Position numbers and translations under genes: made by a program. Shown piece by piece: positions 4,602 to 34,877 of a stretch of DNA of 36,068 bases. The DNA comes from Helicobacteraceae bacterium (GTDB taxonomy: Bacteria; Campylobacterota; Campylobacteria; Campylobacterales; Sulfurimonadaceae): the NCBI GenBank assembly GCA_021163845.1, contig JAGGTH010000090.1:1-36068 (forward strand). Direction: 5' to 3'. The notes below the pieces were generated by a model. It searched no databases. It saw only the letters and a program-made list of their open reading frames with translations, and was not told where the DNA came from. The stretch's first letter is position 1, and each line of letters starts with the position of its first letter.

Positions 4602-4652
4602 ACGGACTGAAGTCCGTGTTACAAACCTCGTAACACAGGCTTTAGCCTGTAA
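4602..4652. repeat. Bipartite palindromic repeat, copy 1 (glcD-yihY gap)
   Basis: The 51-nt element has three inverted repeats in series: ACGGACT-GA-AGTCCGT, then GTTAC/GTAAC around a 7-nt spacer, then ACAGGCT-TT-AGCCTGT. A second copy in the same orientation lies at 10240-10297 inside priA. The two copies differ only in the dinucleotide loops of the hairpins and in the central spacer (7 versus 14 nt). It fills most of the 76-nt space between the glcD stop and the yihY start. The form, short hairpins with 7-bp stems and 2-nt loops, resembles REP/BIME elements mobilised by RAYT transposases; no such transposase is in the window. Confidence 0.88.
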
Positions 4653-4655
4653 GTT

Positions 4656-6041
4656 TTACTCCAAGCCCATCTTTGCAGGATTTAAAATATTATTTGGATC
4701 AAAAGCTTTTTTGATCGATTTGAAAAGCGCCATCTCCTCAGGGGTAAATGCCATCGACATATATGGCGCTTTTGCAAGCCCAATACCGTGTTCGCCACTG
4801 AGTGTTCCACCCAGATCAATTGTCGCTTGAAACACCTCTTCGATCGCTTGGTAGGCAATTTTTACTTGCTCAGGATCAGATCCATCTACCATTACATTTG
4901 TGTGAACATTTCCATCACCCGTATGCCCAAAGCATGGGATCTTCACATTATATTTATCCGCGATCGCATAAAATTTTTCGAGTAGTTCAGGGAGTACTGC
5001 ACGCGGTACTGTGACATCTTCATTGAGCTTTTTACTTCCATAGACACTCAGCGCAGGGGATGCGTTACGACGTGCAAACCAGATATCTTTTGCCTCTTGG
5101 TCATCTTTTGCAATTTTGAACTCGCTACATCCGTTCTCACGAAACACTTTTTCTATTTGTGCGAGCTGGAAGTCAAGATCTTGCTCGAGATTCCCATCTA
5201 CATCCGTAACAAGCAGCGCACCAGCATCTACAGGCAAGCCTTTGTGAAAGGTCTCTTCCACTGCACGTATCGTAAGATTGTCCAAAAACTCCATCGCAAC
5301 GGGAGTGATCCCGCTTGCCATCGTTTTATAAACTGCTTCCATCGCATCGTGTACAGTTGGGAAGATCCCCATCGCTGTTTTTGTCATCTTTGGTTTTGGG
5401 ATCAGCTTGAGGGTGATTTCAGAGAGCACTGCTAAGGTTCCTTCACTCGCGATCAAAATACCACTGATATTATAGCCCGCAACATCCTTGATAGTACGTT
5501 TTCCAGCCTTGATAATATCACCGTTTGGCAACACCGCTCGCGTTGCCATGACGTAATCTTTAGTGATCCCGTATTTTGCGGCGCGCATTCCACCTGCGTT
5601 TTCACTTACATTCCCACCGATCGTAGAGTACTCTTGACTCGCAGGGTCTGGCGGATAGAAAAGTCCCACCTCTTCGACCGCACGTTGCAAGTCCATATTG
5701 ATAAGACCAGGTTGCACTACTGCGACCATATTTTTCATATCGATCTCTAAGATCTTGTTCATATGCTTTTCAAATGCCAAAACGATCCCACCACTACTAG
5801 GGAGGGCTCCACCTGTAAAACCACTTCCAGCCCCACGAGGCACGATCACAATGCGATGTTCGTTACAGTATTTGAGTATCGCTGAGATATCCTCTTCATT
5901 TCTTGGAAAAACCACCGCATCAGGCTCAAAACGCTCACGCGTTGCGTCGTAAGAATACGCAATAAGGTGTGCTTTATCACTATAGATATTTTCATCACCC
6001 ACTATGCTTGCAAAATGTTTTAAATGTTTTTGATCTATCAT
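4656..6041 (-). CDS. glcD: FAD-linked oxidase, GlcD / D-lactate dehydrogenase type
   Basis: A 461-residue flavoprotein that oxidises a 2-hydroxy acid (glycolate or D-lactate; the substrate cannot be told from sequence). The PCMH-type FAD-binding domain occupies about 1-220, with VPRGAGSGFTGGAL (67-80), PPDPASQ (130-136) and IGGNVSENAGGMRAAKYG (141-158). The C-terminal FAD-oxidase domain carries the metal-binding HTGDGNVH (His373 and His380) and GEHGIG (Glu417, His418). The length fits the GlcD family. Only 3 nt separate its ATG from the stop codon of the upstream pgbA-like gene, so the two are cotranscribed. Neighbouring iron-sulfur (GlcF-like) or GlcE genes are absent, so it may act alone or with a partner encoded elsewhere. 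Confidence 0.92.
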   Translation of the reverse strand: MIDQKHLKHFASIVGDENIYSDKAHLIAYSYDATRERFEPDAVVFPRNEEDISAILKYCNEHRIVIVPRGAGSGFTGGALPSSGGIVLAFEKHMNKILEIDMKNMVAVVQPGLINMDLQRAVEEVGLFYPPDPASQEYSTIGGNVSENAGGMRAAKYGITKDYVMATRAVLPNGDIIKAGKRTIKDVAGYNISGILIASEGTLAVLSEITLKLIPKPKMTKTAMGIFPTVHDAMEAVYKTMASGITPVAMEFLDNLTIRAVEETFHKGLPVDAGALLVTDVDGNLEQDLDFQLAQIEKVFRENGCSEFKIAKDDQEAKDIWFARRNASPALSVYGSKKLNEDVTVPRAVLPELLEKFYAIADKYNVKIPCFGHTGDGNVHTNVMVDGSDPEQVKIAYQAIEEVFQATIDLGGTLSGEHGIGLAKAPYMSMAFTPEEMALFKSIKKAFDPNNILNPAKMGLE

Positions 6042-8147: not shown

Positions 8148-8712
8148 GATAGATTCCATCACAGAGCTAAAAAAGCCACAATTTGTACAGCCTATCAAAA
8201 TCAACTACACCCTCAAAGGGCAACAAAAAGTGTGGGAAGCGATCATTAGCCACGATAGTGTGTCAATTTTGCTCTGGCACACCCAAAAGTGCTCTTTTGT
8301 CGTAGTCAAACAACTTCGCGCAACAGTTTTACATAGCCATAAAAAAAATGGCTACACCTACGAGCTATGTGCTGGGATCATTGACAAAGAGATCAGTGAT
8401 ATAGAGATCGCAAAAGAGGAAGTTTTAGAGGAGTGTGGCTACGATATCCCTCTCGAATCTTTTTCGAAGATCACCTCTTTTTATCCAAATGTGGGTGTCA
8501 CAGGAGCCAAACAAACTCTCTACTATGCCGAGTGTGATGAGAGTATGCATGTAAATGAGGGTGGAGGTACACACGAAGAGGATATCGAAGTGATCTACAT
8601 CCCAATCGAGGAGATCAAAACGTTTATGTTTGATGAGAGTTATCACAAGACCCCTGGGATGCTTATGGCGTTTTATTGGTTTTTGGAGAATAAATCTACC
8701 CAAACTCTATAG
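8140..8712 (+). CDS. Nudix hydrolase, ADP-ribose/UDP-sugar pyrophosphatase-like
   Basis: A Nudix protein of 190 residues when started at the ATG at 8140; the open frame extends further upstream, but only inside the M23 gene. The Nudix helix region reads AGIIDKEISDIEIAKEEVLEECGY. The essential EExGU part is intact, while the first Glu of GX5E is Ile and the usual Arg before EU is Glu. Such deviations occur in nucleoside-diphosphate-sugar hydrolases of the NUDT14/TrgB kind, which also fit the preceding AG and the C-terminal acidic region. The probable reaction is cleavage of an NDP-sugar or ADP-ribose to NMP plus sugar phosphate. It is translationally coupled to the M23 peptidase and overlaps the priA 3' end by 17 nt. 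Confidence 0.88.
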   Translation: MAKIDSITELKKPQFVQPIKINYTLKGQQKVWEAIISHDSVSILLWHTQKCSFVVVKQLRATVLHSHKKNGYTYELCAGIIDKEISDIEIAKEEVLEECGYDIPLESFSKITSFYPNVGVTGAKQTLYYAECDESMHVNEGGGTHEEDIEVIYIPIEEIKTFMFDESYHKTPGMLMAFYWFLENKSTQTL

Positions 8713-10591
8713 GATCCATATCTATCTCAGCGAGTGGTTCCCGACACGAATTCACCGCAGCGATAAGACTTGTACTTTTGTCTGAACGCAAAAGTATCTC
8801 AAAGCGGTATTTATTTGCCACTCTCTCCACACTACATTTCCCAAAACCAACCACTTCTACATCCGAAGATGCTTGAAGTCTCTCTTGCATCCTATGCATC
8901 TGCTCTTGCACTTTTGCTCCATTTTTGTGAGAAAAAAGGATACGACAAAGTCTTTTATACGGAGGATACAGCCCCTCTCGATAAAGTTTTTCATCCTCTA
9001 AAAAAAGCTCATAATTATCTTTGTACGCATCAAAAAACTCTTTATTAAATGTTTGCACTAACACCTTGGCGTCTTTGGCACGCCCACTTCTTCCTGCGAC
9101 TTGTATCAACGAAGAGAGCGCTTTTTCTCGCGCTCTATAATCACTCATATTGAGCATATTATCCATCCCAAGCACCACTGCCAAAGTCACCCCATGATAA
9201 TCGTGCCCCTTAGAGAGCATCTGTGTACCCACAAGAAGATCGATCTCTGCTTTATTAAAACGCTCTAACGCTTTTTTGAGCTTGGATTGTGTGGTGATGA
9301 CATCCCTATCAAACTGCTCGATCCTTGCATCAGGAAAAATCTCTTTGAGATTTTCTACAGCTTCTGCAGTTCCTAGACGTGCGCTTGTAAGGTTTTTGCT
9401 ATGACACTCTGGGCAAACTTGTGGAATCGCTTGTGTGTAGTTACAGTAGTGACATTTGAGTGCGTGGGCTCTTTGATGTACACTCATCCCCACGCTACAA
9501 AAGGCACACTCAAAAGTGTATCCACAATCTCCACATATAAGGTATTTGAAGTTTGCTCGTGTTGGGATAAAGAGGATCGATTGTTCTTTAGATGTAAGTG
9601 TTTGACCCAGATGATTTAAGATCAAAGGGGAAAGTGACTCCACAGAGGGCTCATAGATAAACTGCTTCTTACTTACAAAGTGCCCTCCTTTGAGTCTTGT
9701 GTGGGGAAATTTTGTATAGCTTCCCAAAGAGGGTGTTGCACTTCCAAGTACTACATTTACCCCATAGAGCTTGCCCATATAGATAGCGAGATCTCTTGCA
9801 TTATAGCGGGGGCGCGAAGAGGATTTGTAACTATCATCGTGTTCCTCATCAACGACGATAAGCCCAAGATCTTTGAGTGGCAAAAAGAGTGCACTTCGTG
9901 GACCTGCAACGATATAGGCACTTCCATCATGGATACTTTTGAGCGCTTTTTTCTTTTGAAGAGGGGTGAGTTTAGAGTGCCACATCACCACTTTATCGCC
10001 AAAATGTTCTTGAAGTCTATGTGACATCTGTGGTGTAAGTGATATTTCTGGCATCAAAAAAATACTACGCTTCCCCTCACGAATCATCTCTTCAAAATAA
10101 CTCATATATATCTCGGTTTTACCGCTTCCTGTATCCCCAAAGAGGAGTGAGACTTTATGGGTTTTTAGAAATTCAAAAGCGTGATTTTGTTTTTGTGAGA
10201 GAATGATTTTGCTTGCTTGGGATGTTTGGTTTTCATGAGACGGACTAAAGTCCGTGTTACAAGAAAGCCTATCTGTAACACAGGCTTCAGCCTGTAAAGA
10301 GTCTACCAAAAAAGGCACCATCAGCCCAAGTGCCTCTCCAAGCGAACAAAAATAATAGCGCGAGATAAAAGAAGCAAGCTCCCTTTGTTTCTCTGAGTAA
10401 GAAAACTCACTCACACCTACAATCTCACTTGTCTGAAAATCAGGTTCTTGGGATGTGGAGAGTACCACAGCTCGCATCGTTCTTTTTTGCAACTCTACAT
10501 CCACAACACTTCCCTCTTTTAAAAGAGATTTGAAATGATATGTGAGAGGGGAAAGTGGTGAAGTAAGAAGTGCGAGTTGGTAAAAATACAA
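8696..10591 (-). CDS. priA: Primosomal protein N' (replication restart helicase PriA)
   Basis: PriA recognises stalled forks and D-loops and reloads DnaB. The 631-residue product has an N-terminal DNA-binding domain (1 to about 95), Walker A GDTGSGKT (152-159), Walker B DEEH (248-251) and SATPS (284-288). Eight zinc-ligand cysteines follow: 353, 356, 362, 365, 380, 383, 393 and 396. The helicase C-terminal region contains GTQMLSKGHDYHGV. The start is a TTG at 10591: it gives the expected MYFYQLALL N terminus, AAGAGG lies about 7 nt upstream, and a stop codon directly precedes it in frame. Residues 99-118 are encoded by a palindromic repeat and sit in the linker before the helicase core, where length variation should be tolerated. 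Confidence 0.97.
   Translation of the reverse strand: MYFYQLALLTSPLSPLTYHFKSLLKEGSVVDVELQKRTMRAVVLSTSQEPDFQTSEIVGVSEFSYSEKQRELASFISRYYFCSLGEALGLMVPFLVDSLQAEACVTDRLSCNTDFSPSHENQTSQASKIILSQKQNHAFEFLKTHKVSLLFGDTGSGKTEIYMSYFEEMIREGKRSIFLMPEISLTPQMSHRLQEHFGDKVVMWHSKLTPLQKKKALKSIHDGSAYIVAGPRSALFLPLKDLGLIVVDEEHDDSYKSSSRPRYNARDLAIYMGKLYGVNVVLGSATPSLGSYTKFPHTRLKGGHFVSKKQFIYEPSVESLSPLILNHLGQTLTSKEQSILFIPTRANFKYLICGDCGYTFECAFCSVGMSVHQRAHALKCHYCNYTQAIPQVCPECHSKNLTSARLGTAEAVENLKEIFPDARIEQFDRDVITTQSKLKKALERFNKAEIDLLVGTQMLSKGHDYHGVTLAVVLGMDNMLNMSDYRAREKALSSLIQVAGRSGRAKDAKVLVQTFNKEFFDAYKDNYELFLEDEKLYREGLYPPYKRLCRILFSHKNGAKVQEQMHRMQERLQASSDVEVVGFGKCSVERVANKYRFEILLRSDKSTSLIAAVNSCREPLAEIDMDPIEFG
10240..10297. 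repeat. Bipartite palindromic repeat, copy 2 (inside priA)
   Basis: A 58-nt copy of the element at 4602-4652, in the same orientation. The left half (21 nt) and right half (23 nt) match copy 1 except in the hairpin loop dinucleotides, and the central spacer is 14 nt. All three stem pairings are kept. It lies wholly within priA and is read in frame as residues 99-118, from LQAEACVT to DFSPS. Confidence 0.88.
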
Positions 10592-11658: not shown

Positions 11659-11682
11659 GTTCCACCTCGGCAGAGGTGGAAC
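11659..11682. repeat. Perfect 10-bp hairpin between two pilin genes
   Basis: GTTCCACCTC and its exact reverse complement flank a 4-nt loop. It lies 12 nt beyond the stop of the 139-residue pilin gene on the minus strand. No T-run follows on either strand, so it is not a classical intrinsic terminator. It could protect the 3' end of the mRNA or be a single REP-like unit. Confidence 0.7.
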
Positions 11683-34738: not shown

Positions 34739-34762
34739 TATCTCTTTTCCTACACTACATTA

Positions 34763-34796
34763 ATTATTAATAATACTCTGAAGTAGTATTAATAAT
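34763..34796. other. 15-bp AT-rich hairpin between tRNA-Trp and secE
   Basis: Arms 34763-34777 and 34782-34796 pair at 14 of 15 positions around a CTGA loop. No T-run follows on the transcribed strand, so it does not look like an intrinsic terminator. It may direct 3' processing of the tRNA from the secE-nusG mRNA. Confidence 0.65.
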
Positions 34797-34801
34797 TGAT
34801 G

Positions 34802-34877
34802 TGGCAGGCGAAGAGGGACTCGAACCCCCAGCCATCGGATTTGGAATCCGGCGCTCTACCATTGGAGCTATTCGCCT
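34802..34877 (-). tRNA. trnW: tRNA-Trp (anticodon CCA)
   Basis: A 76-nt cloverleaf on the minus strand. The acceptor AGGCGAA pairs with TTCGCCT, followed by discriminator G and an encoded CCA. The D arm is GCTC...GAGC, the anticodon stem CCGGA/TCCGG encloses TTCCAAA with anticodon CCA, and the T arm contains TTCGAGT. It lies between rpmG and secE, as in other Campylobacterota. Confidence 0.97.

Follow-up and report, generated by a model that had tools for sequence, protein, structure and literature searches.

Rickettsia palindromic elements (RPEs) are palindromic DNA repeats that are translated in frame within functional proteins. They had been named as the precedent in a preliminary description of the locus studied here, where a short palindromic repeat lies within the reading frame of priA. 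The phenomenon is indeed of a known kind, and to RPEs must be added the in-frame palindromes of other bacteria. These intragenic REPs, which are GTAG- or CGTC-tagged palindromes, occur as in-frame dimers of 20-30 codons, often in replication or repair genes, and in recB of two Xanthomonas species different REPs occupy about the same site (Di Nocera et al. 2013; PMC3733652). Also close are the REP/BIME elements associated with RAYT transposases, in which the classical head is GT(A/G)G (PMC2817692).

The priA insert resembles RPEs in that a palindromic repeat is translated in frame in a conserved gene, expression being predicted here. It differs in the phylum, the free-living hosts, the unrelated short sequences and the use of a few hot loops instead of many genes. 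Like intragenic REPs (PMC3733652), it is a small palindromic dimer placed in frame inside a gene; unlike them, about ten unrelated families fill one orthologous linker in dozens of species, and the head in the present case is GTAAC. Neither priA nor rmlB, the second gene discussed below, is named for intragenic REPs in the main text of that report. With RAYT-associated REP/BIME elements (PMC2817692) it shares a short head followed by a hairpin, units of 20-40 nt, inverted pairs and dispersed intergenic copies, but the head is GTAAC, no cognate RAYT was found and the copies are fewer. As in RAYT systems, the genome that carries the insert also contains a RAYT-like gene bordered by palindromes, but these belong to another family. 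We regard the single priA insert as a further case of a known kind; the new part, which appears unreported, is the orthologous hot spot common to many families. No orthologous hot spot filled by many unrelated palindromic families was found in the open-access literature searched, which is not proof of novelty.

An in-frame palindromic element in the PriA linker

The window, that is, the whole stretch of DNA analysed (36,068 nucleotides), corresponds to contig C15 of genome G000, which amounts to 2.24 Mb in 113 contigs and whose nearest named relatives are Sulfurimonas. Its relevant features are the following.

8696..10591, minus strand: priA, replication-restart helicase of 631 aa, TTG start, frame intact
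PriA residues 15-93, 134-288 and 544-620: Pfam domains 3'BD, DEAD and PriA_C, respectively
10208..10312, minus strand: interdomain linker, codons 94-128, of variable length in relatives; pLDDT below 50 at 102-124
10238..10297, minus strand: codons 99-118, the insert as translated, LQAEACVTDRLSCNTDFSPS
10240..10295, no strand: REP/BIME-like palindromic element within priA, made of two hairpin units in inverted orientation, 14 nt apart
10240..10260, minus strand: unit 1, GTAAC + ACGGACTTTAGTCCGT
10275..10295, plus strand: unit 2, GTAAC + ACAGGCTTCAGCCTGT
4602..4650: second copy from the GTAAC family, in intergenic DNA immediately past the stop of the gene at 4656-6041 (minus strand)

The hairpins are 16 nt each, and their GTAAC heads face one another across the spacer (10261-10274); read on the plus strand, the left hairpin is ACGGACTAAAGTCCGT with its GTTAC (10240-10260). 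Each hairpin pattern gave 4 matches in the window, the palindromes of two sites each being counted on both strands, compared with 0.07-0.18 expected from shuffles; none of 100 shuffles reached 4. The 71-nt element segment folds with z = -3.5, a value equalled or bettered by one of 200 shuffles. The 56-nt copy in the window has 4 of its 6 frames open, while most other inverted pairs have only 2. In priA it is read through without a stop or loss of frame, and its earlier assignment to residues 99-118, with two cysteines (Cys104 and Cys111), proved accurate to the residue.

The Pfam boundaries agree with the proposal that the insert lies between the DNA-binding domain and the helicase core. Taking out residues 99-118 leaves a linker of 16 aa, the length found in outgroups, so that the insert is exactly the 20-aa excess over the baseline linker and relatives show the gap that had been anticipated. 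Conservation of the segment at the amino-acid level in PriA proteins lacking the DNA repeat, which had been named as contrary evidence, was not seen; the segment is missing from relatives.

An AlphaFold model of PriA, built on 37 relatives, has a mean pLDDT of 87.5, with values below 50 at the C-terminal tip and at residues 102-124. The latter is the sole internal segment of such low confidence and separates the 3'-DNA-binding domain from helicase lobe 1. Among the best structure matches the highest TM-score (0.83) belongs to 6dcr, a winged-helix-deletion mutant of E. coli PriA, and alignment to full-length PriA structures shows a jump of ~68 residues just ahead of helicase lobe 1. Taken together, the match and the jump suggest that the winged helix is missing from these PriA proteins, with a bare linker in its place and the insert within that linker. 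The overall fold and domain order are those of E. coli PriA (6dcr, 8fak, 4nl4), but where that enzyme has a winged-helix domain, Sulfurimonas PriA apparently has a short, predicted disordered linker.

Several other identities of the element were considered. An intein is rejected, as the insert has 20 aa compared with well over 100 aa for inteins, and the Pfam matches include no intein domain. A phage origin was rejected, with no match to the element among 50,697 phage records, and an Rfam search of the window for a known RNA family returned a tRNA only. As regards the criteria for a MITE, inverted hairpins are present, while the ends show no clear target-site duplication in a comparison limited by the nearest PriA being ~76% identical and by the lack of a close empty-site relative. 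Elsewhere in the window, a 21-bp A+T-rich inverted repeat at 34757-34802 adjoins a tRNA gene (34805-34877, minus strand) and is possibly a terminator.

The GTAAC family and its possible transposase

A relaxed GTAAC pattern gave 37 matches at ~20 sites in the whole genome; when the pattern was reversed as a control, it gave 4. The units are of 21 nt and form BIME-like inverted pairs with spacers of ~7-32 nt. Within the genus the family is well populated in 2 of 135 genomes, that of the window and G035; G123 has one near-match. The G035 assembly, which is 68% complete, has 34 hairpins of the family, and priA was not found in it. With only one other Sulfurimonas genome out of 135 populated, the element looks recent in the lineage of the window.

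No cognate transposase or RAYT was found for the GTAAC family: both Y1_Tnp loci of G000 are flanked by other palindromes, and no Y1_Tnp locus was found in the incomplete assembly of G035. One of the two loci, on contig C10 (L014:1444-1965, minus strand), is an intact RAYT-like Y1 transposase gene (Pfam Y1_Tnp, 1.4e-11) surrounded by numerous copies of another palindrome, GCAAGCCATYGSYTYC, which has 58 matches genome-wide. The other, on contig C1 (L015:1296-1827), is a broken Y1 transposase between inverted TTCCACCTC..GAGGTGGAA palindromes of a third family, which has one copy in the window (11660-11681, between pilin-like genes) and also occurs in PriA linkers of relatives. With GTAAC in place of GT(A/G)G as the head and no cognate transposase found, the label REP/BIME-like is safe for the GTAAC family and RAYT-REP is not established.

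The PriA linker across relatives

PriA sequences of relatives were drawn from 60 genomes, 80 named contigs and 80 further regions of the genus, many of them metagenome assemblies. Outgroup linkers are an unremarkable 16-21 aa, and an order-wide sample gave PriA of ordinary size outside the genus. In Sulfurimonas and Sulfuricurvum the linker ranges from ~16 to more than 100 aa, the long ones being mostly translated palindromes, and in most relatives it stays at 16-24 aa. Among 147 distinct linker DNAs, 52 encode at least 25 aa; 37 of these 52 match a listed palindromic family, 35 have a hairpin with z < -2.5 and 43 have either. Linkers shorter than 20 aa gave no family match in 53 and such hairpins in 4 of 53 (Fisher p = 8e-11 for hairpins, long versus short). 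About ten families, unrelated to one another, fill the linker:

GTAAC: the family of the window
CTGAACTTGATTCAG: peptides HSELDSES / EILNQVQDD
GTCATTGCGAGCGAAG: peptides VIASEA, HCEERSNL and CRVTSFLAVT
CAGGTTTCAACCTGG: peptide TQVSTWA
GGTGAGGCTAAAGCCACACATCC: peptide GEAKATHP
CCCAAG...GGGAACGAG: peptide HSQAEHGNE
TTCCACCTC..GAGGTGGAA: peptide STSPEVE
GSDALSSP..SEAKAS: family known by its peptide
VRPEPVEG and RVGGNP/GLDPGI: families in Sulfuricurvum

In some species two families stand side by side in one linker (L089, L266, L302). On a PriA tree (FastTree, linker removed), the family labels require at least 36 changes and presence or absence of an insert at least 24; these figures are approximate, as labels came from regular expressions and peptide reading and gain is not separable from loss in the counts. 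Long or split linkers are also carried by single-contig genomes (G157, G062, G011, G073). Palindromes have thus landed in this linker repeatedly, and in dozens of related species it has been filled independently by unrelated families. The earlier suggestion that new linker sequence arises in this way is strongly supported by the many independent insertions of unrelated palindromes into this linker in sister species.

Some inserts are tandemly amplified, with DDGRVVL four times, three AGTKVPVP..TSVWA units and RHSEQL four times (L063 of G016, L086, L105), so repeat expansion also lengthens linkers. Five genomes with a frame-broken PriA yielded no convincing natural frame-breaking insertion: G078 has an assembly gap of Ns within an insert (L298), G021 (L065) is frameshifted at a run of Ts immediately beyond the linker, G127 (L309), a fragmentary genome, has its frameshift close to the linker, and in G077 and G101 the contig end cuts the gene. 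Assemblies break at or near the linker at the end of G077:C1 (L308) and the start of G101:C232 (L291), as expected where dispersed repeats lie. A candidate pair of filled and empty sites, L252 and L263, was set aside; the left arm is partly retained in L263, which may reflect a deletion and not the state before insertion.

Palindromic inserts in other genes

In 1.15 Mb around priA (80 loci), the linker families occur at 41 places, all of them intergenic or in ORFs of fewer than 120 codons, and none in the long conserved genes of these flanks. Three short ORFs overlapping intergenic repeats had no Pfam match, and the remaining ones were treated as spurious. A peptidase M1 ORF (L177) was rejected as a genic copy of CTGAACTTGATTCAG, the match having two mismatches and being probably due to chance. 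We also scanned 1,759 neighbouring ORFs, each with at least 3 homologues, for palindrome-type inserts of at least 12 aa regardless of family; there were none, and the same rule returned 13 of ~60 in PriA. Its other returns were a single gene with inteins, one masked stretch and an indel of 20 aa. The intein-like inserts, of ~340 aa, occupy one conserved site of a gene near priA (L079, L081, L088, L101, L104, L113, L115, L147) and other species are without them.

In the genome of the window, pattern search located 60 sites belonging to three families, with 0.4 Mb of that genome retrieved. Three of the 60 are in conserved genes, although ~92% of the window is coding; genic copies are therefore depleted. 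The three are the priA copy and two inserts in rmlB (dTDP-glucose 4,6-dehydratase; L172:1329-2483, minus strand; C39:15788-16912), which are in-frame palindromes of different families. A check for the same element in other coding genes had been proposed. The element was not found in other conserved genes of its own genome, whereas other families were, in rmlB. One family's loop precedes HHISTDEVYG and another's precedes SYKDLITFV, and in rmlB of relatives (L340-L359) many Sulfurimonas species have a variety of palindromes in both loops. Hot genes other than priA therefore exist. Across the material compared, which comprises the priA flanks and three families of this genome, the phenomenon so far looks like one of a few tolerant loops, of which priA is the clearest, and not like a general invasion of genes.

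Origin and fate of the inserts

We consider it probable, at roughly 0.85, that a dispersed REP/BIME-like copy inserted in frame in priA and now forms a peptide of the disordered linker, selection sparing only in-frame, stop-free copies in loops. Palindromic elements, whose dispersal is observed, would insert throughout the genome, with the copies delivered by transposition, perhaps through RAYT-type Y1 transposases. Selection would then purge nearly all copies within genes, which is seen as their depletion, and the survivors would be those that keep the frame, bring no stop and fall in a structurally unimportant disordered loop, as in PriA, where the disorder is predicted. The PriA linker of Sulfurimonas and Sulfuricurvum would be one of very few such places, refilled by any palindromic family active in the lineage, so that over lineages it may become a patchwork of formerly mobile DNA. 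That the in-frame element is tolerated as a linker peptide, as first proposed, is the best reading and is supported by relatives without the segment and by a DNA family populated in 2 of 135 genomes. On this account priA would be expressed with its insert and the protein would be active. The insert itself is probably tolerated and near-neutral.

The marked concentration on one linker of a single replication gene could instead mean positive selection for the inserts, if PriA acts differently (in the reach of its 3'-binding domain, or in its fork contacts) when the linker is lengthened or changed and the missing winged helix is thereby offset. Lengthening does recur, to ~100 aa, and the winged helix is apparently absent at the very place of the insert. 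Yet the linker is 16-24 aa in most relatives, the inserts have no peptide feature in common, and the pattern recurs at two loops of rmlB, which encodes a sugar enzyme unconnected with replication. We therefore think it unlikely that selection drove the lengthening, and similarly doubtful that the peptides are favoured, for example as a winged-helix substitute or a tuner of replication restart; if they were, favoured insertion would be an engine making interdomain linkers from selfish DNA. A hot spot might also reflect insertion preference and not survival, with priA targeted at the DNA level, for instance by single-stranded DNA or a sequence that draws a transposase. One site is indeed used by many unrelated families, and palindromes of older inserts can serve as targets for new ones (compare the adjacent families of L089, L266 and L302). 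But these families have different heads, the linker DNA of empty relatives has no conserved sequence, and the rmlB loops are similarly struck, which together with the short linker of most species makes such targeting very unlikely.

An assembly artefact, in which a copy of the repeat would have been joined to priA by error in a metagenome-type assembly, is hardly credible, even though 113 contigs make up the genome and, among relatives, contigs of G077 and G101 break at or near the linker. The frame runs cleanly through the element, the residual linker is exactly the baseline, and single-contig genomes carry comparable inserts. Insertion followed by selective survival in tolerant loops thus stays our preferred account of the priA element.

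In-frame palindromic elements have so far been described as isolated oddities, in Rickettsia and in a small number of REP-rich bacteria. The PriA linker and the rmlB loops would offer a natural, replicated experiment on how mobile DNA turns into protein sequence, with sister species that have or lack an insert, background genes in which no hit was seen, and a clear structural predictor in the disordered interdomain loop.
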